Shown here: in pieces, positions 10,386-60,426 of the stretch
How positions within the stretch are numbered: the first letter of the stretch is position 1
Layout of the letters: every line of letters begins with the position of its first letter
Source of the DNA: Argopecten irradians
Taxonomy: Eukaryota > Mollusca > Bivalvia > Pectinida > Pectinidae
Length of the DNA stretch: 64,000 bases
Reading direction: 5' to 3'
NCBI RefSeq assembly: GCF_041381155.1
Contig: NC_091138.1
Span: 37,813,604 to 37,877,603, forward strand
Made by a program: the position numbers and the translations under genes
The notes under the pieces: model-generated
The model's input: the letters and a program-made list of their open reading frames with translations, nothing else
Database searches by the model: none
Told to the model about the DNA's origin: nothing

Positions 10386-10387
10386 AT

Positions 10388-17621: not shown

Positions 17622-17912
17622 CTACAATGGCAAAAAAAAGTAAGACCTCAATTATTTTAACAAAATCATTAAAAATCTCTTGTGAAAAAATACTAACTAA
17701 CAAGATTTTAGTCTTTTTCCAAAAAATCTATAAATTTTCATCAATTTCACTTTCGGTAGAGACCAAAAAGCATGCAAATAAATGGCTTTTAAACAAAAGA
17801 TTGAAAAAAAAAAGTTTTTCATATGCAGAGTCGGAAGTCTGAAGAATTAAAGACTGGTTTCGGCTAACAACACCATCAAGGATGGAATGGAGTAATTGTG
17901 CATCCTTAATGG

Positions 17913-21827: not shown

Positions 21828-22027
21828 AAAGGGGCCACAGTGGCCGCATGGTTTCGATGTCCTGACATATTACCACAGGCCCTCCACCTCTGGGATGAGA
21901 GTTTTAATACTATGTGGGGCCGTTGCCAGGTACTGACCGCTGGCGGGTGGTTTTTCTCTAGGTACTCAGGCTTTCCTCCACCAACAAACCTGGCTGTTAA
22001 CAGGACGTTAAACTAATAAATACCAAA
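21828..22027 (+). mobile_element. tRNA-derived SINE, duplicate of the one at 1973
   Basis: Same intronic insertion, same flanking GCATTCAAAT repeats and same decayed box A. Carried along by the segmental duplication. Confidence 0.85.
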
Positions 22028-22366
22028 GCATTCAAATTATTCAAAATTTTGTCCTTGTCCTTAATAAGTAGACTTCTGACAGAAGATATTGTACACTACA
22101 GGTATTCATTGTTTGCTGTTGTGAACCACATGGGTACAATAGAGAGTGGTCACTACACCTGTTTTATCCGCCAACTGAAGGACCAGTGGTTCAAATGTGA
22201 TGACCACCTCATCAACAAGGCGTTGGTTGGCGATGTTTCACAACAGTGAAGGGTAAGTTCTCTAAGCTTCAGGTATTTGAAAGTTATAGGTTTATTTGTA
22301 TGTGCCCGCCGACAATAGTTTGCGAAGGCAATACTATGATGTTACTTTTCTGGCGGCGGTGTTGTG

Positions 22367-22605
22367 ATCAACATATCACTTTAAAGTTTTGCGTTTAGCT
22401 CTGTTTCTCAAAAACTGTAAATCCAAAACTAACCAAACTTTAAACATAGCTGTAGGACATCATTATCACCTCAACATACCTAATTGTTGCAGGATCAGGG
22501 TGTGGGATTCAGAGGCTATGAAACTTAGTGATGCTCTTTTTCTCAAAAAGTATAAGTGTAATCCTAAACAATCTTGGGCGTAGGATTCAGATGCTGTAGG
22601 ACAGA
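22367..22605. repeat. Shortened intronic 178-bp repeat, unit 2
   Basis: Only one ACTTTAAAGTTTTGCGTTT unit remains, where unit 1 has two plus a fragment. Confidence 0.75.
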
Positions 22606-22727
22606 ATTAGCCTTCATTTCACTTTTTCTTCATTTTGTTTTACTTTCAGATGTTTATAAATATTCCATTATAGTTATGTATTAAATCAATAATACGGTAC
22701 AGGCGATACTTATACTTACATGTAATC

Positions 22728-22937
22728 TTGTGTAATGGTATTCCGTATTTGCATATTACAAAGTTATCTGCCCTTTGCGGGTAGTTATTGATTGTGACGT
22801 CATGTATTTTTGAGCTTAACATAATACTTTTCGGAGAAAACGACGTGAATTGCGCTCATAAAATAATGACGTAATAATCAATACCTATCCGCAGGAGAGC
22901 TAACTTTGTAATATGCAAAGACGGAATTGTTACACAA
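22728..22937. mobile_element. MITE-like inverted-repeat element, unit 2 copy
   Basis: Counterpart of 3062-3261, with slightly better preserved inner arms (GTAGTTATTGATTGTGACGT against AATAATGACGTAATAATCAA). Confidence 0.8.
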
Positions 22938-23578
22938 CCAGTGAAAGTTTTGTGTGTGATGTTTCGATAACTAGTATGATACCCAAAAATCTTGAATCCT
23001 GAATCGAAAACAGGCCGGTCATGAAAGTAAGTCTTGGATTTCCTACTTTCAAATGAATCTTGAAAATAGCTTCGTTGTGAAAATAGGCTGCACTTGAATG
23101 TAAGCATAGACTGTATGGACAAAAAGGTAATCTTATCTAAGCACACAAAGGCAATCCCCACTGTTTTTGCATAATGGGCACTGTCCAAATTAGGTCTTTG
23201 TGACCTACTTTTTGATAGTAAGTTATATTTTCCAATTTGTTCTTTTTTCAACATATCGGTGCATACTGGGTAGTAATTCATAAAAAAAATAATTTAAAAA
23301 TGTCATTTGGTTCTGGCAAAACTGGATCATACAGAAAATTAATCCATAACTCACAAAGGTTTCTGACCTGACCTTAATCATATGCCATATCATTATGACT
23401 TAACCCCCAGGTATCTGTAAACAAAAAATAATGCTTATCATGGCCACTAGATGGCCCAATCTGACACACCCCTCCTTTGATAGTTTTGATCGTATAAAGC
23501 AAATTTTTAAAAAAAATGTCTATTTCTTGCCACAGGTATCTGCTGTTTTATCACAAACAAATTCTGGAGTATGATTGA

Positions 23579-26500
23579 CCTTAACTGAATCTTAGTGCTC
23601 AAGTGTGGTGCAACTGTACTTTTTCCTGTCGTGTGTAAATGGACCTGAAGCTACAACAAACATGACGGCTGCATGTCTCTATCCTTATTGCCTCAGACTC
23701 ACAGCCTACTAGTGTAGAAGTCTGGATACTTCAACTCGCTCATCAACAACTACAAACCACAAACATATCGACATGACCTTGGAGCTATAGGATACAAATT
23801 TGGTACAGGCTGTTACCACCAACACAGCCTTCTGTTTTAATAGAGTATAAAGACAAAAATTGTTATTTTAAATTAACTTGAAAATAGCTTGAAAGCCACT
23901 TAATCACTCACTTTTGATTTGGTATTAAATTCTTTCCGAATTGGTTTCCATTTATCTATCTACTAAATGTAGAGGTACCAACCATAAAATGCATTTACAA
24001 ATAACACATAGATGTAATACTTACTGAAATCTGTACCATTTTGTACTAAATATGATTCATAGGAATGATAAAGTTATCAAACTAGTGAGTTATCACCAAA
24101 CATATTATTAATCTCCGCCCATACTTTCTAATGACAAAACATTCTAGCATGATGTGCCAAGTGGCATGCAATGTAATCTATCTGTGCTCCTTACAGTATA
24201 TACCTATCTATGTTTTACTGTTTTGAAGTGGCTTCCATTGTGTGCTTTATACTGATATTGTGCCATCTACAAGTGTTTTGTATACTTTTGCGTCTCACTT
24301 TCTCTGTTGTGTAATTTTTGCAGTGTATAGCACCATGTGTGCTCTTAGAGTTTAGCCATACATGCTGTGTACTTTTGCGGTATGCATCAGTCATGCTGTG
24401 CAGTATTGCAGTTTAGAACCATTTGTGCTGTGTAATGCTGCATTGTAGCACCATCTGTGCTATGTAATGCTGAAATATTGCACCATCTGTGCTATGTATT
24501 GCTCTGCATTATACATTTGTAGTACCATTTGTGCTGAGTAATGTTGCAGATTAGCATCTACAGCACTTCTGTTACACTTACTAATGCGATGTGGAACACA
24601 AATAAGATTCAATCTGTTCTGGTATGACACACCAGTATATTTTGTTGTATGTATGGCATCAGTTCATCATGTTTGAAGTGGCAACACCAAATTAAAATGT
24701 ACTTGTTTAAATCATTAAGTACAAGTAAAGGTAAAATCTTTGTCATTCTATATTGGTTACTGTACTATTTGGTGGCTGGTGGTCTGTACATGGCTATGGG
24801 GTGAATCTTGATTCTTGAAAGTGTTGGTCTTCACTTCCACTTCAGTAGATTGTTCATCATATGTTTTTGCTTATTATTTGTTATTTGTTAAATACTGTCA
24901 CATCATTGATAGGAGTATTCCAGGGCTGACCATTTACCTGTAGTCAGAGCTGGATGGAAAATAATCCACTCATTTATAAACCATTGTGTATCTGAAATGG
25001 CAATACCGATTGAGAAGTAATTTGCGGACTTGCAGCTTTTCTGTACGGACTGTTGTGTTAATATCACATATCTCAATGATCAGGGTTTATTTTTATGTTT
25101 GTCTTTGGTTTACATTGTAACTGACCAGTTTTCATTTTTCAATATGTTATCGCACTTGGTTATAAGGTCAGTGGTTTAAAAAATATCACTGCATGACCAT
25201 ATAAGGAGATGACCATATGTAGCCACGACATGTGTCACATGACTATCACCCGTTATGTTGACAAAACATAAATCGTAGGAACTCAAATACAATGTTCCTT
25301 GGAATGATATCCTTATTTGTCTGATCACTCGGCGAGTCTGGTCCTAGCCTATGTGTTTATTTTTGTGTTTTCTCATTTTTAAGTTGATTATTTAACAAAT
25401 GATTTTATTTTATTTGGCCTACACATATTAGACCAAGGCTTAAAGATTGACACAATTGTGGCAGAAATTATATAAATATAACTACATTTACACTATTGAA
25501 GTAAACTACACGTAGATATGCTAATCAGGTTGATTGTTTAGCCATAATGAATTCAGTATCAACATAATGTAAGGAGTTGTTAGTATAAATAAGGATCTCA
25601 GAGGTAGCCATTCAATGAGCTACAGATACTACCATGGAATGGTAGCGGTGATGATTTGATTATTCTATAACTCTAAACTTAATGAGACTAAAATGATGAT
25701 GAGCCATGTAGTGTTAGATTTTGATCCCTGTAGACATTTGTGTCTGTATTGGATACAGTATTACAAGTGTGGCCAGTATTGAATGGTTGGTATATACAAT
25801 ACTGTGATGTCTGGAAGGTGTACAGATGTCAAAATCAGAACAAGCGTGTGTGTGTCAAAATCAAGCGTGTGTGTGTCAAAATCAAGTGTGCTACTATCAA
25901 AATTGAGTGTGCAAGTGTCAAAATCAGATGTGTGATAAAAGATGTCAAGTCCGGAATTGTATGGTGAATTTTGGGTAATAGTTATGATCTAATAGTAAAA
26001 TATATGTTTTCCTATTTTATTTGGGGCATAAGAGAGAAAATCAGGGAGTTTTCTTCCCATGTGAAATGATTGGCAACTGGAATGGCCGTACAATAATTAG
26101 TGCATGTTATGAATTAAGTGTGATTTGAATCTTTGCCACATTTTTATTTGCACATGAGAATGTATTTCTATATTTTGTACATTTTGAATTCAGCTTGTGG
26201 TACTTAGCTGGCTCTATGGGGACCTGTGCAGGCATTAGTCTCAATGCTGTTTGTTACCTGGGAGTATGTTGTTACTGTGTGGCTGAGAGGGTAGTGTATT
26301 GTGCATGGCTGTGTAGTGTGTTCATTAGGGTTGTATAATTATTACATATATAATATATTAATTAGGGATATATAAGTATTGTATGTAAATGCTACTTTGT
26401 ATGGTGTATATTTGACTGTTGAAATGCTATACAAATGACTGTTGATGTTTTCCCCGCTGTGAAATTTTCCCATTACTTACTGTAATAATTTTGATTTAAA

Positions 26501-28630
26501 CTGGTGTAAAATTTTGAAAAAGCAAACATGTTCTTTCTTTAAACATTTTAGTTATATTCCTAGAGATACCTGTTTTTGGTTGCTGTAAACCAACTAATGT
26601 GTGTGAGCAAGTTAGTTTCACGTATTTCACGGACAAAAACAAATCGTAGATTATAAATCACTAGATTAAATGGCATCAAAAAAGTTGTTTGGCAACAAAA
26701 CACAAAATTAAGTCACTGCAAAAATATAAGTTGGTTAACAGTATTACACTAGAAGCTTTTTCATCAAATGCCTGGATTTTCTTTGGCCAATTCTCCGGTA
26801 CACACAGACTTAATGATTGAAATTATTCCCCGATAATGGAACTCGATATTTTCTACCAAAATCTAGTGACTACCAATCTATTCTCGATAAAATCTTTCTT
26901 CTTAGATAAGGATTTTTCATGACATTGTGTGATAGTGTATGATTGAATTTTACTCTTGTTTAATTACACAAGCACGATCAGATAATATTGGATAGTTATA
27001 TTACAATCATATTACCCACCTATATAAATGTACATTCTAAGTTTTGTATACAAGTTTGTACTTAACTGATAGATTGTCCTTTAGGATAAAAAAAAAAAAA
27101 TCTTCAGGGATATTTTTATCAATGTATTTTTGATGATACGAGATATGCTCATGAGAAATAAGCACGAAGTTGTTGATAGGATTTGTAAATCACGTTATAA
27201 TGTGATATGTTTGTGTTGGGAAATGACATACTGGTATACTTATGTTATACTTTGTATAATGCGTCTTTTCATAGATGTACACGAAATATGAACATATTCT
27301 CTTTGATTTTTTTTTCTCCAAGTTCTCTACACACATAATCTTGTGATGTACCCAATGTTCTGTCTTAGTATTATTTCCCTGTTGAACATTAACAAAATTC
27401 TTCTTTGAATCTTAAATATTATGGTGTAAACATACTTTCTGCTTAAGTTTATAAATTTGTATAAATCATATTTATTATGTGATGAATGTGAAAATTCCTC
27501 TTTGAATGTCATTTTTAAGAATTATCTTATTCTTATTTTCTCCCGACATTATAACTGTATTGGTTGAATGTAAACTTTATACACTATTTAATCCTTGTGT
27601 TGTCAAATCTGTCTTTAACATTTTCATCTTAGAGCCAACGAATTCATCTTTAAATTTTTCTTAACATAGCTTGTAAACCAACTTTGCAGCTTCTCAATTT
27701 TGAAAATCCCACATCAAAAAAGTTAAATTAAGCTTTGCGTTTATAGAAATCGCTGTTCCTTTTTTATCTTCAAATTGAAAATTAAAAACAAAAGGCTCTA
27801 ACCTACCAATTCTGATAACATAATCTTATAAAAAGTGTATCAATATATAAACTGCTTCACCACTGAACAATTCTTTAAGTTCTTCTATTTCTATGCCTGG
27901 AAGAGTTCATTTTGGAATCAGGGGGGTGAATGGGTTCTTCTATTTCTATGCCTGGAAGAGTTCATTGTGGAATCACAGGGATGAATGGGTTGATGATAAT
28001 AAACTCGGTGATATGTATTCTATAACTAGATACTATTATCCTAACAGAATGTGTAAATTTTTATCTGTAATTTATTTAACAGAATCCTGACATAATGGGA
28101 TATGTATGTTGTAGATTACTTTGCCATATGTATACATGAGTATTGTGTGCTGTAGGAAAGGATAGGTAGTAAAACTCATGTTTTACTGAGGAATGAATTA
28201 GACTCCCTACAAACTGCCTGGTGAACAGAAGTGAGGATCTAATGACTGTAACATTTATGTAGGCATATTTGTTTGATATCTGGCATGATTAGTCCTCATG
28301 TATAATGTGTTATGAACATTTCCTCAAAGGTATGGTGTTTTGGAAAAGGTGTGAACTAGCATTGGTCAACTATAAGTTATCTCCCTTTGAAAGTATGTGG
28401 TGAACATTTGCGTGAGAGTATGAAACATACAGATTGAATTGGGCTGTGGTGAGCCAAGAGGATATTGTCAAAACAACAGGCCTCTTTGTATGGTTTTTGA
28501 GGGTATTGAGTAAGAAATGGTTTGGATTGATAGGAAGTTGTCTACCTGTAAATGATACTATCCTGTGTGTTCATGCAGTATAAGAAGTTTGCAGAATGAT
28601 TAGAGCTACATTTATATTAAGTCATGTGTA
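23579..28630. other. Duplicate of the USP22 3' flank
   Basis: No gene seen. It follows 3902-8910 almost base for base, including the short repeats at 24,280-24,560 and 25,825-25,945. Confidence 0.55.
27875..27998. repeat. Short tandem duplication specific to unit 2
   Basis: TTCTTCTATTTCTATGCCTG and the following GAAGAGTTCATT segment occur twice, about 60 bp apart. Unit 1 (about 8218-8270) has it once. Confidence 0.85.
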
Positions 28631-28631
28631 T

Positions 28632-29395
28632 ATAGCTAAGGAGAGGTAATATGAAATTAAGGAAATGTAGGACGTAACTAAGGAGATATAGAATGTAACT
28701 AAGATGTAAGATGTAACTAAGGAGATGTAAGATGTAACTAAGGAGATGTAAGATGTAACTAAGGAGACGTAAAATGTAACTAAGGAGATGTAACTATGGA
28801 GATGTATAATGTAACTAAGGACATGTAGGATGTAACTTAGGAGACATAAAATCTAACTAAGGAAATGTAATATGTTACTATGGATATTTAGGATGTAACA
28901 AAGGAGGTGAAGGATGTAACTAAGGAGATGTAGAATGTAACTAAGGAGATGTAGGATGTAACTAAGGAGGTGTAGGATGTAACTAAGGAGACGTAAAATG
29001 TAACTGAGGAGATGTAGGATGTAATTAAGATGTAGAATGTAACTAAGGAGATGAGAATGTAACTAAGGAGATGAGAATGTAACTAAGGAGATGAGAATGT
29101 AGAATCTAAGATGTAGGATGTATGTAATAAGACATAGCATGTAACTAAGGAGATGCAAGGCGTAACTAAGGAGACGTATCGATAAAATGTAACTAAGGAG
29201 ATGTAGGATGTACTAAGGAGATGTAGGATGTAACTAACGAGATGTAGGATGTAACTTGGAGATGAAAGGTTTAACTAAGGAGATGTATCGGTAAGATGTA
29301 ACTAAGGAGATGTAGTATGTAAATAAGGATACGTAGGATGTAACAAAGGAGATGTATGATGTAACTAAGGAGACATAGTACTAAGGAGGCTGAGG
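28632..29395. repeat. 21-bp minisatellite, unit 2 copy
   Basis: Counterpart of 8915-9640. It has an extra run of GGAGATGAGAATGTAACTAA units near 29,040-29,100. Confidence 0.9.
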
Positions 29396-29780
29396 AATTG
29401 TTGAGGGTTGATCCCTCAGTAAATTAATTGTAAATTATGTGATGTAATCAATGATACAAAGCTGATTTTTGTAAAATTTTCAGTTTGATTTTGCCATTTT
29501 TTGGTTGTAATGTTATCATTGCGATGTGAGCAGTTTTGTAGGGAGTCTTGTGTTTATCTATAATGAGTGTGTGTTTGTAGACATGCTACCCTGTGCTGAA
29601 GCCCTGTGATATGTTGGGTGTCTTATAAACTGGTCTGTATTCAATATTAATATGTGCTAAGTACATTTTACGTACTGCCAGTGCCCTACTAATTAAATTT
29701 GATTTTGAAAGACCAGTCATGGTTCTGTTGTTTTTTCAAGACATGATCAGAGAAGGTAAACTATCTGAAAGATAGTTTCA

Positions 29781-30146
29781 CTTAAAGATGCTCCACCGCC
29801 GACAGAGCATAAATGATATTCATCATTTGAACAATATTTAGTGTTTAATCGTGTATATATATGCCTAATTGAAATAAAAATGAAAATAAAATTATTTATT
29901 TCGCCTTTGGTGCATGCAAAATCATTACTTTATTCCATATAGGACATAGTGACACAGAATTTTCTCGGGATGCAATTAATTATTTTTCATATTTTTAATT
30001 TGAAGTAAAACTAGAAGCTCAAACTTTTCGAAGGTAGTAATGGTGTAAAGTAAGTAACTTTTGTAATTGAAGGAAAATACTACATCGTCTGCTCCTGTTT
30101 TTGATGGTGAAAAAATATTATTTGTCAACGGTGGAGCATCTTTAAG
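29781..30146. mobile_element. MITE-like element, CTTAAAGATGCTCCACC type, unit 2 copy
   Basis: Counterpart of 10,028-10,385 with the same terminal repeats. Confidence 0.85.
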
Positions 30147-30148
30147 AT

Positions 30149-30345
30149 TTAACATTCTATTAACAGCCAGGTCATTTAAGGAAATGTTTAGGTAAGGAGG
30201 TAGATGAAATCCAAAATACCTAAAAGAAAAACCAAAGACAACAGTCAGTACCTGCCCTACTTGGGATTCAAACTAGCCGCCCAGAGGTAGAAGGCTTGTC
30301 GTAATATGTATGGTCATCTTAACAACTTGGCTGCTATAGCTCCAG
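30149..30345 (-). mobile_element. tRNA-derived SINE, unit 2 copy
   Basis: Counterpart of 10,388-10,585. Confidence 0.75.
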
Positions 30346-30811
30346 CTATACTTTGGAAGAAATAACAAAGGTATAATATTAACTGATGGTCATTTTTATT
30401 ACTTCATAAACAGGTTTATAAATATTCATACAAAATATAAATTGCACTTTCTTGTAACTCAAGGAATGGATTTCATAAAGTCTATGAATTAATGCTAGGA
30501 ATCAATGCTACATGGAATATGCTTTCATATTGAATACTGTATTGAACTATTTTGCCTTAAAAATGTTTATGATATCTTTGAATACTGTGATAGAACAGTA
30601 CTGATATCTGATCTCGTCATCGTCCAATGGCCATGGCAGTGTTGGTGTACTTTCCTTTTAACATTAAACCCAGGGCTGGGTTCCTCACCTTGATGTAAAC
30701 ACACCAGATCACAAGCCAAACCACAAGGGTTTTGGTTGGTATTCTTGTTTGTTCCTTAATTCACCAGACAATCCATTACATGCTTCAATCCCCATCAACA
30801 GGCATGATAAA

Positions 30812-30905
30812 TATCGCCCTCGATACTCCAGGGGATACTATCTCTGTCATCATATCCACCCTTATAATATATCATTGCAAATTTGGAGGCAGTTAAGGGG
30901 GAAAA
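30812..30905. mobile_element. Half of a CATCCTCGATACTCC-family MITE
   Basis: CCTCGATACTCCAGGGGATA and, further on, GGAGGCAGTTAAGG match the left half of the family. No right terminus is seen before the 38-bp array starts at 30,944. Present only in unit 2. Confidence 0.7.
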
Positions 30906-30943
30906 CTGAACAATCCCAGGCATACAGAAACTTCCTTTGTAGA

Positions 30944-33900
30944 TTTACAGAGGGTGACACCCAACTACAAAGCCATACAGTATTACAGAGGGTGACACCC
31001 AACTACAAAGCCATACAGTATTACAGAGGGTGACACCCAACTACAAAGCCATACAGTATTACAGAGGGTGACACCCAACTACAAATCATACAGTATTACA
31101 GAGGTGACATCCAACTACAAAGTCATACAGTATTACAGAGGGTGACACCCAACTACAAAGCCATACAGTATTACAGAGGGTGACACCCAACTACAAAGCA
31201 TACAGTATTACAGAGGGTGACACCCAACTACAAAGCCATACAGTATTACAGAGGGTGACACCCAACTACAAAGTCATACAGTATTACAGAGGGTGACACC
31301 CAACTACAAAGTCATACAGTATTACAGAGGGTGACACCCAACTACAAAGTCATACAGTATACAGAGGGGACACCAACTACAAAGTCATATAGTATTACAG
31401 AGGGTGACACCCAACTACAAAGCCATACAGTATTACAGAGGGTGACACCCAACTACAAAGTCATACAGTATTACAGAGGGTGACACCCAACTACAAAGTC
31501 ATACAGTATTACAGAGGGTGACACCCAACTACAAAGTCATACAGTATTACAGAGGGTGACACCCAACTACAAAGCCATACAGTATTACAGAGGGTGACAC
31601 CCAACTACAAAATCATACAGTATTACAGAGGGTGACATCCAACTACAAAGTCATACAGTATTACAGAGGGTGACATCCAACTACAAAGTCATACAGTATT
31701 ACAGAGGGTGACATCCAACTACAAAGTCATACAGTATTACAGAGGGTGACACCCAACTACAAAGCCATACAGTATTACAGAGGGTGACACCCAACTACAA
31801 AGCCATACAGTATTACAGAGGGTGACACCCAACTACAAAGTCATACAGTATTACAGAGGGTGACACCCAACTACAAAGTCATACAGTATTACAGAGGGTG
31901 ACATCCAACTACAAAGTCATACAGTATTACAGAGGGTGACACCCAACTACAAAGTCATACAGTATTACAGAGGGTGACACCCAACTACAAAGTCATACAG
32001 TATTACAGAGGGTGACACCCAACTACAAAGTCATACAGTATTACAGAGGGTGACATCCAACTACAAAGTCATACAGTATTACAGAGGGTGACACCCAACT
32101 ACAAAGTCATACAGTATTACAGAGGGTGACACCCAACAAACAAAGTCATACAGTATTACAGAGGGTGACATCCAACTACAAAGTCATACAGTATTACAGA
32201 GGGTGACATCCAACTACAAAGTCATACAGTATTACAGAGGGTGACATCCAACTACAAAGTCATACAGTATTACAGAGGGTGACATCCAACCAAATACAAA
32301 GTCATACAGTATTACAGAGGGTGACACCCAACTACAAAGTCATACAGTATTACAGAGGGTGACACCCAACTACAAAGTCATACAGTATTACAGAGGGTGA
32401 CATCCAACTACAAAGTCATACAGTATTACAGAGGGTGACATCCAACTACAAAGTCATACAGTATTACAGAGGGTGACACCCAACTACAAAGTCATACAGT
32501 ATTACAGAGGGTGACATCCAACTACAAAGTCATACAGTATTACAGAGGGTGACATCCAACTACAAAGTCATACAGTATTACAGAGGGTGACACCCAACTA
32601 CAAAGTCATACAGTATTACAGAGGGTGACATCCAACTACAAAGTCATACAGTATTACAGAGGGTGACACCCAACTACAAAGTCATACAGTATTACAGAGG
32701 GTGACATCCAACTACAAAGCCATACAGTATTACAGAGGGTGACATCCAACTACAAAGCCATACAGTATTACAGAGGGTGACACCCAACTACAAAGTCATA
32801 CAGTATTACAGAGGGTGACACCCCAACTACAAAGTCATACAGTATTACAGAGGGTGACATCCAACTACAAAGTCATACAGTAATACAGAGGGTGACATCC
32901 AACTACAAAGTCATACAGTATTACAGAGGTGACACCCAACTACAAAGTCATACAGTATTACAGAGGGTGACATCCAACTACAAAGCCATACAGTATTACA
33001 GAGGGTGACATCCAACTACAAAGTCATACAGTATTACAGAGGGTGACACCAACTACACCCAACTATCCAATACAAAGTCATACAGTATTACAGAGGGTGA
33101 CATCCAACTACAAAGTCATACAGTATTACAGAGGGTGACACCCAACTACAAAGTCATACAGTATTACAGAGGGTGACATCCAACTACAAAGTCATACAGT
33201 ATTACAGAGGGTGACATCCAAAACTACAAAGTCATACAGTATTACAGAGGGTGACATCCAACTACAAAGCCATACAGTAATTACAGAGGGTGACACCCAA
33301 CTACAAAGTCATACAGTATTACAGAGGGTGACATCCAACTACAAAGTCATACAGTATTACAGAGGGTGACACCCAACTACAAAGTCATACAGTATTACAG
33401 AGGGTGACACCCAACTACAAAGTCATACAGTATTACAGAGGGTGACACCCAACTACAAAGTTCATACAGTATTACAGAGGGTGACACCCAACTACAAAGT
33501 CATACAGTATTACAGAGGGTGACAACCCAACTACAAAGCCATACAGTATTACAGAGGGTGACATCCAACTACAAAGCCATACAGTATTACAGAGGGTGAC
33601 ATCCAACTACAAAGCCATACAGTATTACAGAGGGGTGACATCCCAACTACAAAGCCACTATACAGTATTACAGAGGGTGACACCAACTACAAAGCCATAC
33701 AGTATTACGAGGGTGACATCCAACTACAAAGCCATACAGTATTACAGAGGGTGACACCCAACTACAAAGTCATACAGTATTACAGAGGGTGACACCCAAC
33801 TACAAAGCCATACAGTATTACAGATGGGTGACATCCAACTACAAAGCCATAGAGTATTACAGAGGGTGACACCCAACTACAAAGTCATACAGTATTACAG

Positions 33901-34473
33901 AGGGTGACACCCAACTACAAAGCCATACAGTATTACAGAGGGTGACACCCAACTACAAAGCCATACAGTATTACAGAGGGTGACACCCAACTACAAAAGC
34001 CATACAGTATTACAGAGGGTGACACCCAACTACAAAGTCATACAGTATTACAGAGGGTGACACCCAACTACAAAATCATACAGTATTACAGAGGGTGACA
34101 CCCAACTACAAAGTCATACAGTATTACAGAGGGTGACACCCAACTACAAAGTCATACAGTATTACAGAGGGTGACAGAGTGACACCCAACTACAAAGTCA
34201 TACAGTATTACAGAGGGTGACACCCAACTACAAAATCATACAGTATTACAGAGTGTGACACCCAACTACAAAGTCATACAGTATTACAGAGGGTGACACC
34301 CAACTACAAAGTCATACAGTATTACAGAGGGTGACATCCAACTACAAAGCCATACAGTATTACAGAGGGTGACATCCAACTACAAAGCCATACATTATTA
34401 CAGAGGGTGACACCCAACTACAAAGCCATACATTATACAGTGGGTGACATCCAACTACAAAGCCATACAGTAT
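30944..34473. repeat. 38-bp minisatellite array, unit 2
   Basis: About 92 units of the same repeat as 12,053-15,515, far more uniform in length than in unit 1 and starting abruptly. C/T choice at the two variable positions changes in runs along the array. Confidence 0.97.
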
Positions 34474-34746
34474 ACTGTTATTAAGATTCTTTTGATGTAC
34501 ATCTGCAGTTGCACACAGAGTCTTCAGTTTTGCTTATTCCTGGAGTGGATATGACGACAGTTGTAATCCATGGAATATCGAGGATGGATAAAGATATCCA
34601 TAAGTTCCTAAAACTTTCCTACATATTGTAAGATATGTTTAACATTCTCATTTGTTACACTGATACCTAAGATATCAGCTGATGGAATAGTAGGGGTACC
34701 TACGAGACATTAAGTTTGTTGGAAACATATCTATCCGAGATCGTCA

Positions 34747-37700
34747 CTATTGGAACATATTATTGCAGTGTGCCAGCTTGGTATGCCAGTCACTGACAAA
34801 ACAAAGCGACCATGTCAACAAGGGCAGAACGGTCAGTGTGATGGTCATCAGCAGCAGGGCATTCATCAGGTTCTTGTTGGTGACACTTGTACCAGGTCTG
34901 GAGGGACAGAAAATAGGGTTTTATATAAAATGGCGACAGTGATATATTTGTCAGAGGCTGTATAATACATTTTATAATAAATTGGGTGTATAACATGAAT
35001 TTTCCTTGTGCAGAAATTTACATTGTTTTGGTATATGGCATAGAACCACAATTATATCTTATGTGTCTTTGTTACCATTGTTTCATCATCTAACCAGGAA
35101 GCTTTCTATCCACCAATTCAAAGCTCCAAACACAAAAGAAAGAACTCATAAATAATGCATGTTATACAGGAAAGTGTTGTGACATGCACAGGACTCACAT
35201 CTGTAGCAAAAACTAGGGGAGATAGTCTTGTAGTTAATACAGTAAAAAAGTTTATAGAAAGACTGTGTATTACATGTATGCTACAGAGCTGGTACAATTA
35301 TGGTACAACTACCTTGATCAAAATAAGGGGAGATAATCATGTAACACATTTATACGAACAATTCTACACGAAAACCAAAGGTTGAAGGACAAAAGAGACA
35401 TTGTGGATATTAAATGAACCTTATAAGTTTCATCATCAGCGTGAATTCTTATACATTTTTGGAATAATAAATAGAAGATTTGAAAATACCATTTCATCAT
35501 GTCATATGCATACTCTTTTTTCAAAAACAGACATACCTTCCTTTATGCGAACTTATAAAAACTTTCATTCATCTGATGTTATTGTGCACATGTCTATGCC
35601 AAACTTACCTGCCAATATTTGTGAACCTAGAAATTCCCAGCCAAAAGATTATTATAAATACACCTCCCATCTCTCTGTAGTGGAAATCAAAGCAAAAGAT
35701 TATTATAAATACACCTCCCATCTCTCTGTAGTGGAAATCAAAGCCAAAAGATTATTATAAATACACCTCCCATCTCTCTGTAGTGGAAATCAAAGCAAAA
35801 GATTATTATAAATACACCTCCCATCTCTCTGTAGTGGAAATCAAAGCCAAAAGATTATTATAAATACACCTCCCATCTCTCTGTAGTGGAAATCAAAGCA
35901 AAAGATTATTATAAATACACCTCCAATCTCTCTGTAGTAGAAATCAAAGCAAAAGATTATTATAAATACACCTCCAATCTCTCTGTAGTAGAAATAAAAG
36001 CAAAACATTTTTATAAATACACCTCTCATCTCTCTGTATTAAAAATCAAAGCCAAACGATTATTATAATACACCTCCCATCTCTCTGTAGTGGAAATTAC
36101 AGCAAAAGATTATTATAAATACATCTCCTATCTCTCTGTAGTGGAAATTAAAGCATGTGGTAATATGGAAACAAAACCAAGTGAAATGACAATATTGAAA
36201 CATAATTGATTATAGATTATAAAACCAGAGAATTTAAGAAACAATTATCATGATAACTAAAATGAAAGTAAATGCTAGTGTGTTCATTTTGAGATTGATA
36301 TATAAACATTGATATAGTCAAATTATTATTTCTGCACATATTTGATTGTATAATTTGGATTACAGAAATTATCATTTCTAAATAAGAATCTACACTTGGC
36401 ACATTATTGGATCAATTTTATTACCTGCCCTCCTCATGTTGTAGTGGGTTGGCTACCTTATGACCTATAGCTTCTAGTGCTAACACTACAGCGTACACAG
36501 CGTAGGCACAGCAGAGTGTGAAGTCAACGACGGCGATACTGCCCCATACTGTACCATCTACAATGGAAAAAAGTAAGACCTCAATTATTTTACAAAATCA
36601 TTAAAAATCTCAAATACTAACTAACAAGATTTTAGTCTTTTTCCAAAATCTATAAATTTTCATCAATTTCACTTTCGGTAGAGACCAAAAGCATGCAATA
36701 AATGGCTTTTAAACAAAAGATTGAAAAAAAAAAGTTTTTCATATACAGAGTCGGAAGTCTGAAGAATTAAAGACTGGTTTCGGCTAACAACACCATCAAG
36801 GATGGAATGGAGTAATTGTGCATCCTTAATGGCATCCTTGATACTCCAGTGGTTCCGTTCACTTACGATATCTACACCCCTGGACTTTCTCATCGTAAAA
36901 CTGGAGGCATCAGAACAGAACAGGTAATTTAGTCCTTTGATGTACATCAAAAGAGCCGTATAATGGTACACTGTGGTTGACAGTGTGGCTTTGAAGTTGG
37001 GCGTCGCTCTATCTGTAGTCTTCAAAGGTAATCTTTGCTGGTCTGTAATTGGTCAAATGTTTTCCGCTGAGCTGCCTTCAATTTCACTATGAGATAGTCC
37101 AGGGGTGTAGAGATCGTAAGTGATCGGAACCCCTGGAGTATCGAGGATGCCTTAATGGCAGCAGTTAATTATTACCATCAGAAGCTTGAATATAATACAG
37201 GGTGTGCCATAAATCAAGTTACACTTTCAAATTGTTGTTACTTTTGACATACATGAACTACAAAATAGATATTTTGGTAAATGAAGATATGTAATCAAGG
37301 ATAACTTTGTTTTGACCACAGTATTAAAAAATGTGTCTTGTGAAAATCGTTGCTAAGATTACTTAGGTATGTTTTTTAAGCTGTTTGTTAGTCAAAATGT
37401 GAAATGTATGATTGCAGGCTTTATGGAGATGAAATCCTAGTGCTTTAAAGGGACAATTCACTCACGCTAATTCTTTTACATAACCAAGAAGCAAAATATG
37501 GCATAAATGTATTGTTCTACATTTCTTATGAAATATATAACATAAGATATTGACAAATTCCACGTCATTGTTTAGTATTTTAATTGATGCCGTTGTAATT
37601 ACAAATCGTTGATCAATACGATTAAGCAGGTACAATATGTACGCTGTACCAATATCCGAGCCAAAGTCACGCACGTTAAACAAATGAACTACATAAGCAC

Positions 37701-42300: not shown

Positions 42301-42707
42301 TACGTAGTTAAAGTTTGAAAAGCAGAGAAAAGATCCCTCTTTCGTTTGTCAGACATAGATCATTCTTTGGTGGGCGCCAAGATCCCTCTGGGATCTATTG
42401 TTTATTACACCGAAACTCAGTAAGTCAATGTATAGTCTCCACGTCCTTCTGAAATACCCACCGCAAACAACTTTTTTAACAGTAACAAAGAAATAAAATT
42501 ATGGTTTTCATAAAAAAAACTTGTTTCATGAATGCAAAGACGCATATTGATTAATTGATATGGGGCTTAACGTCCATGTTCCGGTTATCCAATTGCCGAA
42601 ACTAGACAGCCAATCACGACACAGGAAACACAGACACACGTGTAAGACAAAACTCACGAGAAATAATGTATAGATCCAGGTACACAATGCACATTGGGAT
42701 ACCAGTT

Positions 42708-43497
42708 CGTCTTTTCGTCTTTTCGTCTTTTCGCCCCGAAAAGACGAGAATTAAGAAACCTTAATTTTCGTCTTTTCGTCTTTTCGGGGCGAAAAGACGA
42801 AATTTAACAACTTTAAATTTCGTCTTTTCGCCGCGAAAAGACGAAAAGACGAAAAGTCAAACACGAAAAGACGAAAGTGATACACGCTAATTAGCGACTT
42901 TGATTCTCGTCTTTTCGCCTTCAAAATTCTCGTCTTTTCGTCTTTTCGTCTTTTCGCCCCGAAAAGACGAAAATTAACAAACCTTAATTTTCGTCTTTTC
43001 GTCTTTTCGCCCCGAAAAGACGAAATTTAACAAACCTTAATTTTCGTCTTTTCGTCTTTTCGCCCCGAAAAGACGAAAATTAACAAACCTTAAATTTCGT
43101 CTTTTCGTCTTTTCGCCCCGAAAAGACGAAAATTAACAAACCTTAATTTTCGTCTTTTCGTCTTTTCGTCTTTTCGCCCCGAAAAGACGAAAATTAACAA
43201 ACCTTAATTTTCGTCTTTTCGTCTTTTCGCCCCGAAAAGACGAAAATTAACAAACCTTAAATTTCGTCTTTTCGTCTTTTCGCCCCGAAAAGACGAAAAT
43301 TAACAAACCTTAATTTTCGTCTTTTCGTCTTTTCGTCTTTTCGCCCCGAAAAGACGAAATTTAACAAACCTTAATTTTCGTCTTTTCGCCCCGAAAAGAC
43401 GAAAATTAACAAACCTTAAATTTCGTCTTTTCGTCTTTTCGCCCCGAAAAGACGAAAATTAACAAACCTTAATTTTCGTCTTTTCGTCTTTTCGCCT
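42708..43497. repeat. Left arm: hairpin tandem array, period about 53 bp
   Basis: The inner part is a run of about ten units. In each, stem CGTCTTTTCG, loop CCC and stem CGAAAAGACG are followed by AAAATTAACAAACCTTAATTTT-type sequence, itself an inverted repeat. Every unit is therefore self-complementary throughout. The outer 220 bp match the right arm one to one; the inner run is the expanded part. Confidence 0.93.
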
Positions 43498-44235
43498 TCC
43501 GGTCTGGTGTGGAAGTCATTTTGAAATCTTTTTATCTTAATATTGACTTAATTGTTCAATATAGAAGCATCAAAGTAGTTTATGATAACAATCGATTTAT
43601 TAAATTGATAGTATTACAAGTATCTTCATCAATAACTAAGATTAGAAGTTTTAAAACAGAAGTCAACATGTTTGTTTACAGCAGTTACGTAGATTTCTCA
43701 CACGTGGCATATGCCACGTGCCACTAACAGATTCATCATTCCGCAAATCCTTTAGCGTGATTGATACATTTTTTTAAAATTCATTAATATCTTATTTTTT
43801 GTGTTCTAATCGCCCTCTTTAGCAATTACGCTTATCAAAACATTGCCGTGTATATGTAAGGACCATAATGAACTTAAGATGCTAAACATAGCACTTACAG
43901 GAGTTGCCTCCCCTACACAACTTGGAAAAAAAAGTTGTCGGCGGGTATTATTTGAAAGCGTTTGAACCACGGATAAACTTGTTAACAAAATAATTTATGA
44001 AAGACAACTCGTGAAGACTTTGAGTTTAAAGGAAAGGACTTGTACCAAGAAATTGCTCAAATACAGTTAATTATAACAGTCAATCAGTAGGTACAAGGTA
44101 CTGTGTATTATTTGAAAACACATTTTGACTACATACATGACATGGTCTTCATCATAATTTTACATTAGAAATTACATTATAATCTCCGTCGTATATGATA
44201 GATGACAAAGTATATCTGTAATTTGTATTTTTTCA
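43498..44235. other. Core of the foldback element
   Basis: AT-rich. A 72-residue plus-strand frame (43,509-43,727) shows no domain and no matching codon bias, so it is not called. It contains a perfect 20-bp palindrome at 43,701-43,720. Confidence 0.6.
43701..43720. promoter_or_regulatory. Perfect 20-bp palindrome with two CACGTG E-boxes
   Basis: CACGTGGCATATGCCACGTG equals its own reverse complement, and a CATATG lies at its centre. E-boxes bind bHLH proteins; no use here is shown. Confidence 0.4.
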
Positions 44236-44528
44236 GGCGAAAAGACGAAAAGACGAAAAATTAAGGTTTGTTAATTTTTCGTCTTTTCGGGGCGAAAAGA
44301 CGAAAAGACGAGATTTTTGAAGGCGAAAAGACGAAAATTAAAGGCGCTAATTAGCGTGCTTCACTTTCGTCTTTTCGTGTTTGACTTTTCGTCTTTTCGT
44401 CTTTTCGCCGCGAAAAGACGAAATTTAAATTTGTTAATTTTCGTCTTTTCGGGGCGAAAAGACGAAAAGACGAGAATTAAGATATTTAGTTTTCGTCTTC
44501 TCGGGTCGAAAAGACGAAAAGACGAAAT
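44236..44528. repeat. Right arm: inverted hairpin array
   Basis: Reverse complement of the unexpanded left arm, with the same internal landmarks. Ends in GACGAAATGG before a 19-bp tail and the flanking direct repeat. Confidence 0.9.
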
Positions 44529-44899
44529 GGCATAAATCAGCCACCGTACAATGCACATTGGGATACCAGTTTAACTTGTTAGCTTGCCCTGTCCATATAC
44601 ATGTATAAAATTATTTACACCTCCGCTACACTTACAAAAAGGCATACGGTGACAAACTTTCATTACAGGTTCAACCTTTGGGCTAAAAATCCGTCCGGGA
44701 CGTGGTTTTACCTCCATAGTCGGGAACCACTTTATGAATTTAATAAATATAAGGCTTAAGTTTAAGGACTCAACGTACCTCCACGAATAATATAACTTTG
44801 TTTACGGGATAGGAAATAGAGTAGGAAGAGTTAAAGTACACAGAGAAAGTAGAGAGTGGGAGGTATAAATATGTTTTTGGCACTATTTGCATATATTTT

Positions 44900-45829: not shown

Positions 45830-47105
45830 GACGTCCATGGATTATTCTATGTCATTTTGGGAGGCTGGGTTAAAAACAATTTAAAACAGTTTCAATATAC
45901 CAAAATACTTAATTGATAGGTTAGAAAATGTTCAAACAGAAGCGGCCCGAATTATAACAGGGGGACCAAACTTTCGAAAATAGAGTTACTTTATAAAGAC
46001 ACACAATGGGAAAAGCTATTCGAACGTCGTAGAAAACATAAACTTTTACAATATCACAAAATGGTTCATAACACATCGCCAACATATCTTTCCTCCATAT
46101 TACCCCCTAGACCAACCGCAATTCATACATACAACACTAGACGATCAGATATGCATCAAACAATTCGCACAAGGACAAATTTATATTATGAATCTTTTTT
46201 ACCTTCATCGACTCGTGCATGGAATGAACTTCCATTAGATATAAGAGAAAATTCCTCTATTAAGGTTCTCAAAAACTACTTTGAAACTGAAATCACAAGA
46301 ACACCGATTAGCTATTTTAACACAGGTAATAGATCAGACCAAATACTTCATGCTCGGTTGCGTCTAGAATGCAGTATATTAAACCAACATCTTTACAGTA
46401 AAAATCTTATAGATTCGCCTCGTTGTGCATGTGGTTTTATAATAGAAGATTCCTTTCATTTTTTGTTCAATTGCATCAAATATGCTGACATTAGGCACCA
46501 ATATCTCTCTGGTATATTCACAAAATATAATATCGTTGACGATTTAAATATCCTTTTATGGGGTGATCCTTCATTTGAAAATAAAATGAACGAGGAAATT
46601 TTTGTTTCGGTACAGAAGTTCATCTTTTACAGTAAAAGATTTTAGTAATTCATACCTTGTATAGTTTTCTTTTTTTCACTGGGGTTTCAATCAATATAAC
46701 TTGTCAAACTACATAATTAATTCATAATTATAACTTTACATTTACTATCACAAAATTATTATTTTAAATGTCTGCAGTAGACGTATACGTAAATCATATA
46801 GAAAAGTAATTGAAAAGTAACTATAAAATTAATTGTCTATTGACAGTATATTTCTATATTAAACACTTAATGTACTACCAAAAAAATATATATATATAGA
46901 GAGAGAGAGAAATATCTCTACTTAAGTATAAATGTATTGTCTCACTGGTTGTTCTGTTATTGTGTATATGTCCATGTCAAAACGCCGTGCTTTTTTTTTC
47001 AGGAGAGGAATTAGTATAAGCTCTAAGCTTGTTTTCCCATCCTAGCTGTCTGTATGTATTGGTGTATATGTATGTATATATTTGAATAAATATTGTTTAA
47101 ACTAA
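45830..47105 (+). mobile_element. LINE, 5'-truncated, 3' end of the reverse-transcriptase ORF and tail
   Basis: From about 45,912 the translation reads LIDRLENVQTEAARIITG, then a one-base frameshift at the GGGGG run near 45,960, then LSKIELLYKDTQWEKLFERR and the open frame to TAG 46,643-46,645. The C-terminal CACGFIIEDSFHFLFNCIKY is the zinc-knuckle-like end common in Jockey/CR1/L2-group LINEs. A 3' UTR follows, ending near TTGAATAAATATTG. Fragment only: the endonuclease and most of the RT are missing. The left boundary is approximate. Confidence 0.85.
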
Positions 47106-47441
47106 AACAGTTAAAAAACTACCTCTAGGTACGTCTAGGATTTATCATAAGGCACTATGATAGCAAATTGTAACTATTGTTCGTATTCCCGTGGTCCCTA
47201 GAGCTAATTGCATTTCTATGAAAGGGGTGGCAATATTAACATAATCGATTAAACAAAGATTCTAAAGCAAGTCAAAATGATAGTGTAATCCCACCAAACA
47301 TCGAACGCCTCTTCAAACTGCGACATTCTTCCGCCATATTTTACTTGCATGACAATTCGAAATATCGTACATAGTATTGGTTCCGGCTGCTGACGCTGGG
47401 GGATTATTGATGTGATCGATGGTGACCTGACACATGCCAGG

Positions 47442-48011
47442 ATGTATGGATATTTAGCGACTTTCGCTTTTACATTTGTTATGGTCGTATGTTCGGAAGC
47501 AGAAGTGCTGGAATATTGTTCGTTCTTTAATAACAGAGCGCCGAAGCCACAACCAACGCTGAGAAACTGTACATGGTTCAAAGAGAATAGTTGCTGCATG
47601 CAAGAGGAGATAGCCGAGACGTTTGGACAGGTAAAAAGTCTTCCCGGAGCATCACCAGCCTGTCAACAATACACTAATTACCTGATGTGCTATATTTGTG
47701 CACCCTACCAGAATTTCTTTTATAAGCAAGAAAACCTGTGGGTATGTGAGGAATTCTGCGATGCTTGGTACGGTGCCTGCGGATCTGCTATTCTGAAAGG
47801 ATCTAGAGTAAATCAACTGTATACCAACGGGAGAGATTTCTGTAAAAGTAGATCGTACAAAGTCAACACAATAGCAGAGAAAAACTGCTTCTTTTTCGAC
47901 AAATCGATGGACACTACAAGCGGACAACGTTCTGGACATGTTTTTTGGGAACATTCCGCCATGTTTGTATCGACAATGATCATGTTTAGTTTGGTGTTAT
48001 ACCCACTGTAG
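47442..48011 (+). CDS. Folate-receptor-like secreted or GPI-anchored protein, copy 1
   Basis: Single uninterrupted frame, 189 aa from ATG 47,442. This start was chosen because the frame then opens with a signal peptide (MYGYLATFAFTFVMVVCSEA) and because copy 2 has the same start. The mature part is rich in Cys: EYCSFFNN, NCTWFKENSCC, YLMCYICAP, LWVCEEFCDAWYGACGSA, DFCKS, NCFFF. The spacing and the C-x3-C-x2-W pattern resemble folate-receptor domains, though it is shorter than vertebrate folate receptors. The hydrophobic C-terminus (FVSTMIMFSLVLYPL) suggests a GPI-attachment signal. Ligand unknown. The promoter lies within about 160 bp that are also conserved at copy 2. AATAAA at 48,265-48,270 is a plausible polyadenylation signal. 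No intron, unlike most neighbours, so a retrocopy origin of the ancestor is possible. Confidence 0.85.
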   Translation: MYGYLATFAFTFVMVVCSEAEVLEYCSFFNNRAPKPQPTLRNCTWFKENSCCMQEEIAETFGQVKSLPGASPACQQYTNYLMCYICAPYQNFFYKQENLWVCEEFCDAWYGACGSAILKGSRVNQLYTNGRDFCKSRSYKVNTIAEKNCFFFDKSMDTTSGQRSGHVFWEHSAMFVSTMIMFSLVLYPL

Positions 48012-54600: not shown

Positions 54601-54768
54601 AAAACTAGTTGTATCCCGCCAAACACTAAACTCTTCTTCAAAACGCGAATTCTTCCGCTACATTTTACTTGCACAACGATTCGAAATATCGATGTGCCAA
54701 GGCACTGGTTCCGTCTGCTGACGCTGGGAGTTTATTGTATGCTCGATGGTGACTTGACAAACGCCAGG

Positions 54769-55338
54769 ATGTATGGATATTTAGCGACTTTCGCTTTTAC
54801 ATTTGTCATGGTCGCATGTTCGGAAGCAGAAGTGCTGGAATATTGTTCTTTCTTTAATAACAGAGCACCGAAGCCACAACCAACGCTGAAAAACTGTACA
54901 TGGTTCAAAGAGAATAGTTGCTGCATGCAAGAGGAGATAGCCGAGACGTTTGGACAGGTAAAAAGTCTTCCCGGAGCATCCCCAGCCTGTCAACAATACA
55001 CGAATTACCTGATGTGCTATATATGTGCACCTACGCAGAATCTTTTTTATATACAGGAAAACCTGTGGGTATGTGAGGACTTCTGTGATGAATGGTACGT
55101 TGCCTGTGGGACGGCTATTCTGAAAGGCTCTAGAGTAAATCAACTGTATACCAACGGGAGGGATTTCTGTAAAAGTAGATCATACAAAGTCAACACGAGA
55201 GAAGAGAAAAACTGTTTCTTTTTCGACAAATCGAAGGACACTACAAGTGGCCAAGGTTCCGGACATGTTTATTGGGAACATCCCGCCATGTTTGTATCGA
55301 CAATGATCATGTTTAGTTTGGTGTTATACCCACTGTAG
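54769..55338 (+). CDS. Folate-receptor-like secreted or GPI-anchored protein, copy 2
   Basis: 189 aa from ATG 54,769, the same length as copy 1 with 15 substitutions by eye and no indels. In-frame ATGs upstream at 54,694 and 54,739 would add residues in front of the signal peptide (MYGYLATFAFTFVMVACSEA) and are less likely starts. All Cys positions of copy 1 are kept. Changes cluster in the central region (APYQNFFYKQ to APTQNLFYIQ; FCDAWYGACGSA to FCDEWYVACGTA), which includes what would be the ligand-facing part by analogy with folate receptors; that placement is inference. Similarity to copy 1 spans about 160 bp upstream and over 500 bp downstream. Both copies look functional. Confidence 0.85.
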   Translation: MYGYLATFAFTFVMVACSEAEVLEYCSFFNNRAPKPQPTLKNCTWFKENSCCMQEEIAETFGQVKSLPGASPACQQYTNYLMCYICAPTQNLFYIQENLWVCEDFCDEWYVACGTAILKGSRVNQLYTNGRDFCKSRSYKVNTREEKNCFFFDKSKDTTSGQGSGHVYWEHPAMFVSTMIMFSLVLYPL

Positions 55339-57740: not shown

Positions 57741-60160
57741 ACAGCGTCCAGATAGAACCGTGGCTGCCCGAATGTTCTTGTAAGATCCCCAAGCCCTTGG
57801 TATACTGGCTTCCAGATAGAATCGTAGCTGTCCGAATGTTCTTGTAGGATCCCCAAGCCCCTGGTATTCTGGCTTCCAGATAGAATCGTATCTGCCCGAA
57901 TGTTCTTGTAGGATCCCCAAGCCCTTGATATCGTGGCGTCCAGATAGAACCGTAGCTGTCCGAATGTTCTTGTAGGATCCCCAAGCCCTTGGTATCCTGG
58001 CGTCCAGATAGAACCGTATATGCCCGAATGTTCTTGTAGGATCCCCAAGCCCTTGATATCCTGGCGTCCAGATAGAATCGTAGCTGTCCGAATGTTCTTG
58101 TAGGATCCCCAAGCCCTTGGTATACTGGCTTCCAGATGGAATCGTATCTGCCCGAATCTTCTTGAAGGATCCCCAAGCCCTTGATATCCTGGCGTCCAGA
58201 TAGAACCGTAGCTGTCCGAATGTTCTTGTAGGATCCCCAAGCCCTTGGTATGCTGGCTTCCAGATATAATCGTATCCGCCCGAATGTTCTTGTATGATTC
58301 CCAAGCCCTTGATATCCTGGCGTCCAGATAGAACCGTAGCTGTCCGAATGTTCTTGTAGGATCCTCAAGCCCTGGGTATACTGACTTCCAGATAGAATCG
58401 TATCTGCCCGAATGTTCTTAAAGGATCCCCAAGCCCTTGATATCCTGGCGTCCAGATAGAACCGTAGCTGTCCGAATGCTCTTGTAGGATCCCCAAGCCC
58501 TTGGTATACTGGCTTCCAGATAGAATCGTAGCTGTCCGAATGTCCTTGTAGGATCCCCAAGCCCTTGGTATACTGGCTTCCAGATAAAATCGTATCTGCC
58601 CGAATGTTCTTGTATGATCCCCAAGCCCTTGATATCCTGGCGTCCAGATAGAACCGTAGCTGTCCGAATGTCCTTGTAGGATCCCCAAGCCCTTGGTATA
58701 CTGGCTTCCAGATGGAATCGTATCTGCCCGAATGTTCTTGAAGGATCCCCAAGCCCTTGATATCCTGGCGTCCAGAGAGACGTAGCTGTCCGAATGTTCT
58801 TGTAGGATCCCCAAGCCCTTGGTATCCTGGCGTCCAGATAGAACCGTAGCTGTCCGAATGTTCTTGTAGGATCCCCAAGCCCTTGGTATACTGGCTTCCA
58901 GATAGAATCGTAGCTGTCCGAATGTCCTTGTAGGATTCCCAAGCCCTTGGTCTCAGGATAGAATCGTATCTGCCCGAATGTTCTTGTAGGATCCCCAAGC
59001 CCTTGGTATTCTGGCGTCCAGATAGAATCGTAGCTGTCCGAATGTTCTTTTAGGATCCCCAAGCCCTTGGTATTCTGGCGTCCAGATAGAACCGTAGCTG
59101 TCCGAATGTTCTTGTAGGATCCCCAAGCCCTTGGTATCCTGGCGTCCAGATAGAACCGTAGCTGTCCGAATGTTCTTGTAGGATCCCCAAGCCCTTGATA
59201 TCCTGGCGTCCAGATAGAACCGTAGCTGTCCGAATGTTCTTGTAGGATCCCCAAGCCCTTGATATCCTGGCGTCCAGATAGAACCGTAGCTGTCCGAATG
59301 TTCTTGTAGGATCCCCAAGCCCTTGATATCCTGGCGTCCAGATAGAACCGTAGCTGTCCGAATGTTCTTGTAGGATCCCCAAACCCTTGATATCCTGGCG
59401 TCCAGATAGAATCGTAGCTGTCCGAATGTTCTTGTAGGATCCCCAAGCCCTTGATATCCTGGCGTCCAGATAGAATCGTAGCTGTCCGAATGTTCTTTTA
59501 GGATCCCCAAGCCCTTGGTATTCTGGCGTCCAGATAGAACCGTAGCTGTCCGAATGTTCTTGTAGGATCCCCAAGCCCTTGGTATTCTGGCGTCCAGATA
59601 GAACCGTAGCTGTCCGAATGTTCTTGTAGGATCCCCAAGCCCTTGATATCCTGGCGTCCAGATAGAACCGTAGCTGTCCGAATGTTCTTGTAGGATCCCC
59701 AAGCCCTTGATGTCCTGGCGTCCAGATAGAACCGTAGCTGTCCGAATGTTCTTGTAGGATCCCCAAGCCCTTGATATCCTGGCGTCCAGATAGAACCGTA
59801 GCTGTCCGAATGTTCTTGTAGGATCCCCAAACCCTTGATATCCTGGCGTCCAGATAGAACCGTAGCTGTCCGAATGTTCTTGTAGGATCCCCAAGCCCTT
59901 GATATCCTGGCGTCCAGATAGAATCGTAGCTGTCCGAATGTTCTTTTAGGATCCCCAAGCCCTTGGTATTCTGGCGTCAAGATAGAACCGTAGCTGTCCG
60001 AATGTTCTTGTAGGATCCCCAAGCCCTTGGTATTCTGGCGTCCAGATAGAACTGTAGCTGTCCGAATGTTCTTGTAGGATCCCCAAGCCCTTGATATCCT
60101 GGCGTCCAGATAGAACCGTATACATAGTTGCCCGAATGTTCTTGTAGGTTCCCCAAGCCC
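57728..60160. repeat. 64-bp minisatellite with higher-order structure
   Basis: About 38 units with core TGTCCGAATGTTCTTGTAGG and ATCCCCAAGCCCTT. Two unit types occur: one with GGCGTCCAGATAGAACCGTA, one with GGCTTCCAGATAGAATCGTA. They alternate from about 57,730 to 58,930, which makes 128-bp dimers. From 58,980 to 60,110 almost only the first type is present. The minus strand is open over long stretches in all three frames (up to 419 codons); as 64 is not a multiple of 3, three units give a 64-residue protein repeat. No start context, splice site or domain supports translation. Confidence 0.95.
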
Positions 60161-60426
60161 TCGGTGTCTTTTTTTTCACTACGCCTACCATAGAAAGTAC
60201 AAAACAATTTAATGGTGCCCGAAGAGGACCCGGGGCGGTTCACAATCCAGTCCATACTAAACTCTTCTGCTCATAAACAAATGCCTTGTGATGTGATGTC
60301 AAACTGGCGACATGTTGTCGCGATCGGTGACCTAAAAAGAACATGAAATGTTTACATTTTACTGATGGACAGTATACCTGTAGGCGAAGAAAGCATCGTT
60401 TTGATTCGTTTCATGGATTGCAACCT

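Follow-up and report, generated by a model that had tools for sequence, protein, structure and literature searches.

A recently active foldback transposon family with hairpin-array arms and probable IS3EU/GingerRoot affinity in Argopecten irradians

The window (the whole 64,000-nucleotide stretch of Argopecten irradians DNA analyzed here) contains one damaged copy of a recently active family of mobile elements with near-identical cores. The family is a non-autonomous DNA transposon of foldback build. A DDE transposase probably mobilizes it in trans, with IS3EU/GingerRoot the likeliest superfamily. We infer the superfamily from the ends and the duplication length; no transposase-bearing partner was found. 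The features of the window copy are as follows:

42685..42707, + strand: second copy of 23 bp of right flank, adjoining the damaged left end (24 bp with the shared A)
42708..44548, + strand: whole element copy, edges set by comparing other copies
42708..43498, + strand: left arm, an outer hairpin domain followed by a 53-bp hairpin array
42886..42895, + strand: left-arm landmark GCTAATTAGC
42935..43496, + strand: array of 10.5 tandem units, each a double hairpin of 53 bp
43499..44236, + strand: core without recognized coding capacity
43701..43720, no strand: 20-bp perfect palindrome CACGTGGCATATGCCACGTG in the core
44237..44548, - strand: right arm, mirroring the left outer domain, right end intact
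44346-44355: mirror landmark GCTAATTAGC in the right arm
44521..44548, - strand: right terminal inverted repeat TACGGTGGCTGATTTATGCCATTTCGTC, an A-type end
44549..44571, + strand: right flank, opening with the expected 6-bp target duplication CAATGC

Structure of the window copy

The arms are composed of hairpins with CGTCTTTTCG/CGAAAAGACG stems. Mirrored inverted arms of this kind had been described in the initial annotation and were borne out: 42760-42948 pairs with 44293-44481 at 93% complementarity across 189 nt, and the window contains 61 occurrences of CGTCTTTTCG, counting both strands, exclusively within 42708-44524; shuffles predict 0.02 occurrences. The run of about ten 53-bp units noticed earlier in the left arm is also real. 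As read off the sequence, a typical unit contains the hairpin TTTTCGTCTTTTCG-CCC-CGAAAAGACGAAAA and a second, weaker hairpin (AATTAA...TTAATT). Folded as single-stranded DNA, 253 nt of the left arm reached -81 kcal/mol versus a shuffle mean of -36 (z -12.5), whereas 251 nt of the core gave a far weaker z of -2.4.

The core of the window copy is about 737 bp long. Of 54 cores, 46 carry its palindrome unchanged and 53 carry it with at most two changes. The core had been said to lack a recognizable transposase, and this holds: stop-to-stop frames reach at most 75 aa in the core consensus, the longest one in the window copy (84 aa) extends into the arm, and no Pfam family scored above its curated cut-off in five frames of the region (one match below cut-off, SidD_C, E 0.018). 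The window has no Rfam match at the gathering score and no tRNA.

Elsewhere in the window, about 1-18000 and 19900-37000 share one succession of tandem repeats, offset by about 19-20 kb (e.g., the pairs 108/19963, 8919/28636, 12053/30945, and 16692/35642), which suggests a large tandem segmental duplication. Two similar folate receptor family frames at 47394-48011 and 54601-55338 (PF03024, E 1.2e-18 and 1.8e-17) are likely a local gene duplication. A 241-aa frame at 45920-46645, without a Pfam match at E 0.001, resembles by eye the terminal part of a LINE reverse transcriptase. A 64-bp tandem array at 57744-60165 (37.9 copies) is open in several minus-strand frames.

Dispersed copies, common ends, and 6-bp target duplications

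Searches of the genome with the outer arm and the core returned many copies, and the dispersal of these copies with common ends supports the proposal, already made from the window alone, of a mobile foldback-type element. The outer left arm had 345 matches, many inside inner arrays (643 first-look candidates, 40 of them scored), and the core had 272 first-look candidates, of which 40 were scored, each with an identity to the window copy of 98% or more. The terminal 26-mer, at ≤3 mismatches, had 707 matches in the genome (333 + 374) and none in a reversed-pattern control; with two ends assumed per copy, this would correspond to about 350 copies. No exact match was found for the terminal 26-mer in a viral contig collection or for the terminal 20-mer in a prokaryote contig collection.

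Fifty-six distinct cores, with distinctness judged by core sequence, were read, and most have the common ends and the arm landmark. Both ends are present in 35, only the right in nine, and only the left in four, while eight are undecided since the sequence stretch is cut; one of the nine right-only cores (L061) is a cut stretch whose left end lies in L008. Comparison of edges among copies placed the left end at TACGGTGGCTGATTTGTGCCATTTCGTC and the right end at TACGGTGGCTGATTTATGCCATTTCGTC, with TACGGTGGCTGATTTRTGCCATTTCG as the true family end and the true left end outward of what the window copy retains. The edges originally drawn at 42684-44571 followed a 24-bp repeat specific to this copy and not the terminal inverted repeat, and they were corrected to 42708-44548. 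The termini TACGG..CCGTA are fixed, with point changes in a few listed copies. The ends are directional. The left end is G-type in 42 of 44 cores that have one (A in L030 and L085), and the right end is A-type in 44 of 46, the exceptions being a nested cluster (L025/L035) and L014, for which the sequence stops within the end.

Arm length varies widely, from 312 to 1087 bp on the left (44 copies) and from 161 to 684 bp on the right (46 copies). Measured from the left end, GCTAATTAGC is at 202-203 bp in 20/44 copies; measured from the right end, it is at 193-194 bp in 20/46. The remaining landmarks found are mostly within 25 bp of those distances (17/20 left, 17/22 right), often offset in 8-bp steps, and four left arms of 44 and four right arms of 46 have no detected landmark. 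The near-constant landmark distance, together with the varied arm length, therefore indicates an outer domain of about constant size and a variable inner array. Core divergence is low (mean, 1.86%; median, 1.36%; maximum, 11.6%; 54 cores), although most of these cores are best matches to the window copy and the family-wide spread is thus understated.

Alignment of insertion edges among copies revealed 6-bp target duplications alongside the fixed ends. Among 34 core-bearing copies with both ends and enough flank, the duplication is exact in 30 and has one mismatch in three, leaving L010 as the sole copy without it. Of 32 end pairs, with and without a core, 27 have an exact 6-bp flanking repeat, and no pair has an exact one of 3-5 or 7-9 bp. 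In a control of 992 mispaired flanks, none was exact at 6 bp and 16 had at most one mismatch.

In addition, one copy is inserted within the arm landmark of another (C3:48747420-48756802). The junction reads CACGCTAATTAG|element|AATTAGCGACTTTGATTC with AATTAG duplicated; the outer arm reads ...CGCTAATTAG before the inner element and resumes as AATTAGCGAC..., and the empty site is represented by the window copy, whose arm is uninterrupted at this point. The outer copy has GGTTTC on both flanks. On the side of the resuming arm the inner junction is tandemly repeated, with a point change in one repeat, and the locus has therefore been rearranged since. Within the same region (L035/L025, C3:48752206-48756420), the left end of the nested copy occurs three times in tandem with near-identical arm flank, and nested foldback copies thus seem to amplify locally.

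These findings bear on the possibility that the structure is a local repeat expansion or a palindromic satellite and not an element. Such an origin would account for arms that are low-complexity arrays and differ in length between copies, but it is refuted by the duplications (33/34 with at most one mismatch) and by the nested insertion with its empty site, and the fixed ends and dispersed near-identical cores also contradict it; it retains virtually no credence. The condition under which an expansion had been expected, that no other copy exists, does not hold.

Target columns weakly suggest a preference for TCNSWWWWSNG (T at -3 in 23/32, C at -2 in 18/32, and G at +8 in 16/32). A palindromic target was considered and rejected, as single-site palindromy (0.299) was not above that at slid centers (0.192-0.326).

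The damaged left end of the window copy

The right terminus of the window copy is intact, 44529-44548 (-) matching TACGGTGGCTGATTTRTGCC exactly, and the left end has lost its outermost 24 bp (22 bp if the junction TT is counted as element). An exact 24-bp direct repeat is found at 42684-42707 and 44548-44571. The first base of its right member is the last base of the element and the other 23 bp are host flank; CAATGC also occurs at 42685-42690. This repeat, which had served as the edges, was rejected as the target duplication of the family, which is 6 bp, as the end pairs attest. The left junction reads CCAGTTCGTC, and the sequence of the element itself there would be CCATTTCGTC; because the two resemble each other, the 23-bp flank copy may have arisen by a template switch.

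A similar arrangement is found in L052, in which the left end is lost and a 26-bp copy of the right flank is present (24 identical). The left end is lost or degraded in 11 copies in all, eight from the set of core loci (the window copy, L036, L044, L052, L057, L065, L075, and L082) and three others (L090, L092, and L093), and a long copy of the right flank occurs in two of them, the window copy and L052. L061 was dropped from this set, and L089 (left end with one mismatch) and L091 (nested cluster) lie outside the class. Among the other members, L036 retains a degraded left end, L082 has a short deletion within the left end adjoining a GGTCCCT match, and the 10-bp flank match of L075 may be due to chance. 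L034 (C2:17423917 region) is without a right end; some 100 bp past its right junction there is a second copy of 55 bp of its left flank, identical at 54 positions.

The 24-bp repeat could alternatively be a true long target duplication from a second insertion mode, as in IS481EU or IS1202. The window copy and L052 both repeat the right flank starting from the right terminus, and the lengths resemble those given in the available portion of PMC10045372, about 25 bp in IS481EU and 24-29 bp in the IS1202 group. Nevertheless, both left ends are truncated, which is not expected of ordinary insertion, the junction favors a template switch, and only two of the 11 copies show the flank repeat, making a second mode quite unlikely. 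A broader version, to which we attach very low probability, is an IS3EU-like family with two integration outcomes, a 6-bp two-ended one and a rarer one-ended one after arm breakage that yields a 23-26 bp duplication, with functional arrays. If true, the long duplication would be about two helical turns longer, like that of IS1202/IS481EU, and the hairpin arrays would provide multiple transposase sites and also cruciforms where the arm breaks.

Under the favored explanation, a transposase acting in trans would bind the outer ends, and perhaps also the repeated hairpin units, pair both ends, and insert the element with a 6-bp stagger. Slippage or unequal exchange could expand and shrink the arrays. 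The left end of the window copy may have been lost during insertion or later, and the 23 bp of right flank may have been copied into the left junction by interrupted gap repair or one-ended insertion. Excision was not observed, which counts against this explanation.

The mobilizing enzyme and comparison with known systems

Profile searches and inward reading from atypical ends found no autonomous partner with the family ends. Bacterial IS3 and IS481 profiles had 73 and 63 matches, respectively (136 rows). All four loci read (L062, L072, L073, and L074) have integrase-core (rve) frames, with an H2C2 zinc-binding domain also in the last three and a reverse-transcriptase RNase H in L074. These loci look like Gypsy-type polyproteins, and the profile matches seem to be swamped by retroelement integrases. 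Forty-eight distinct atypical ends were listed, one pattern used for this having seven matches in its own reversed control too, and 13 were read inward (L063-L071 and L075-L077; L078 continues L064). No DDE-transposase-like frame was seen by eye at these 13 among frames of at least 90-100 aa, one L069 frame being the only one subjected to a profile search, and the 13 comprise relatives that are likewise non-autonomous, arms standing alone or truncated, and unrelated sequence.

The L069 frame (118 aa) had a subthreshold match to PF00589, the phage-integrase family of tyrosine recombinases (E 0.00018; 21.8 bits versus a cut-off of 27.1), and was rejected as not linked to the transposon family. 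Three end-like sequences lie in direct order at L069/L071 (C14:34420287, 34424849, and 34427185), one of them near this frame.

The same mobile element could be driven by another superfamily with 6-bp duplications, through a Polinton-like integrase, Dada, or an undescribed transposase. Polintons are large elements with integrase, polymerase B, and capsid genes, and their ends are not known to be TA..TA. As an element type, Polinton does not fit, as the 32 end pairs span 0.2-2.6 kb and the core has no long frame; as a source of the trans-acting enzyme it shares in the overall probability of this group. The group gains from the finding of no transposase with the family ends and from duplication lengths, Polinton also being assigned 6-bp (PMC10045372) and Dada 6-7 bp duplications (PMC3706591) in the parts of these articles available. 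Dada families, however, are reported to lack terminal inverted repeats and to insert in small-RNA genes, whereas there is a clear inverted repeat here, with mutually differing flanks in the listed pairs and with neither Rfam match nor tRNA in the window. Taken together, another superfamily is unlikely, and IS3EU/GingerRoot remains the preferred assignment.

Complete IS3EU families always have TA..TA termini and usually 6-bp duplications (PMC10045372), and a set of fungal IS3EU families ends in TAYGG..CCRTA (PMC12730594), according to the accessible portions of both papers. The present family resembles IS3EU/GingerRoot, as so described, in its TA..TA ends, the TAYGG..CCRTA pattern, 6-bp duplications, and terminal inverted repeats of >30 bp, and it differs in that no copy read here has a transposase. 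It also has hairpin-array arms, which the same portions of PMC10045372 and PMC12730594 do not mention for IS3EU. The initial annotation knew of no named family with this structure. This was too strong at the superfamily level, given the ends and the duplication length, but the family itself is called new. IS481EU, characterized by TNT..AYA ends and duplications of about 4, 15, or 25 bp, does not match TACGG..CCGTA and 6 bp.

Limited searches of the open-access literature found no hairpin-array design on IS3EU-type ends, and IS3EU and foldback elements occurred together there in one paper, foldback in the title of a reference and IS3EU in a table. Four short words of the element had no match in this literature, and no such family was named in titles or abstract openings among the matches listed. 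The analysis offers a likely superfamily for a foldback element without a visible enzyme, represented by perhaps 350 copies in the genome, of which the dozens read are mutually close. Near-fixed outer domains with variable hairpin arrays constitute a natural series for asking whether arm hairpins help or hinder transposition, and the family offers a view on how foldback elements seed satellite-like arrays.

Pearl is a bivalve element of rolling-circle type that carries tandem repeats, and elements of this type are not known to make target duplications. Bivalve Helentron-type non-autonomous elements also carry tandem repeats, as stated in the available part of PMC7492417. Pearl, the Helentron-type elements, and the present family are all non-autonomous and spread satellite-like repeats in bivalves; unlike these rolling-circle elements, the family described here has inverted ends and 6-bp duplications.

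The foldback structural class is matched by long inverted arms, internal tandem repeats, and lengths that vary by copy. Drosophila FB and sea urchin TU are foldback-type elements. Other examples, as described in the accessible parts of the sources, are Tetris, a non-autonomous foldback element with internal tandem repeats in its arms and a unit of about 220 bp (PMC4079207); Galileo, which has inverted arms of variable length, tandem repeats in some copies, 7-8 bp duplications, and a unit of about 140 bp in a Drosophila willistoni copy (PMC4168063, PMC3688188); and Tm1, with variable-length inverted arms and 9-bp duplications (PMC3169594). Long inverted arms, non-autonomous copies, and target duplications are common to these elements, so far as described, and the present family, in which the unit consists of two hairpins within 53 bp versus about 220 bp in Tetris and about 140 bp in Galileo. 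Membership of the P/Galileo and Mutator/Tm1 groups is contradicted by the 32 end pairs, which have no exact 7-9 bp match. Foldback elements with tandem-repeat or composite arms have already been described, and we therefore class the element as a new family that varies the structure of known kinds and does not amount to a kind of its own.
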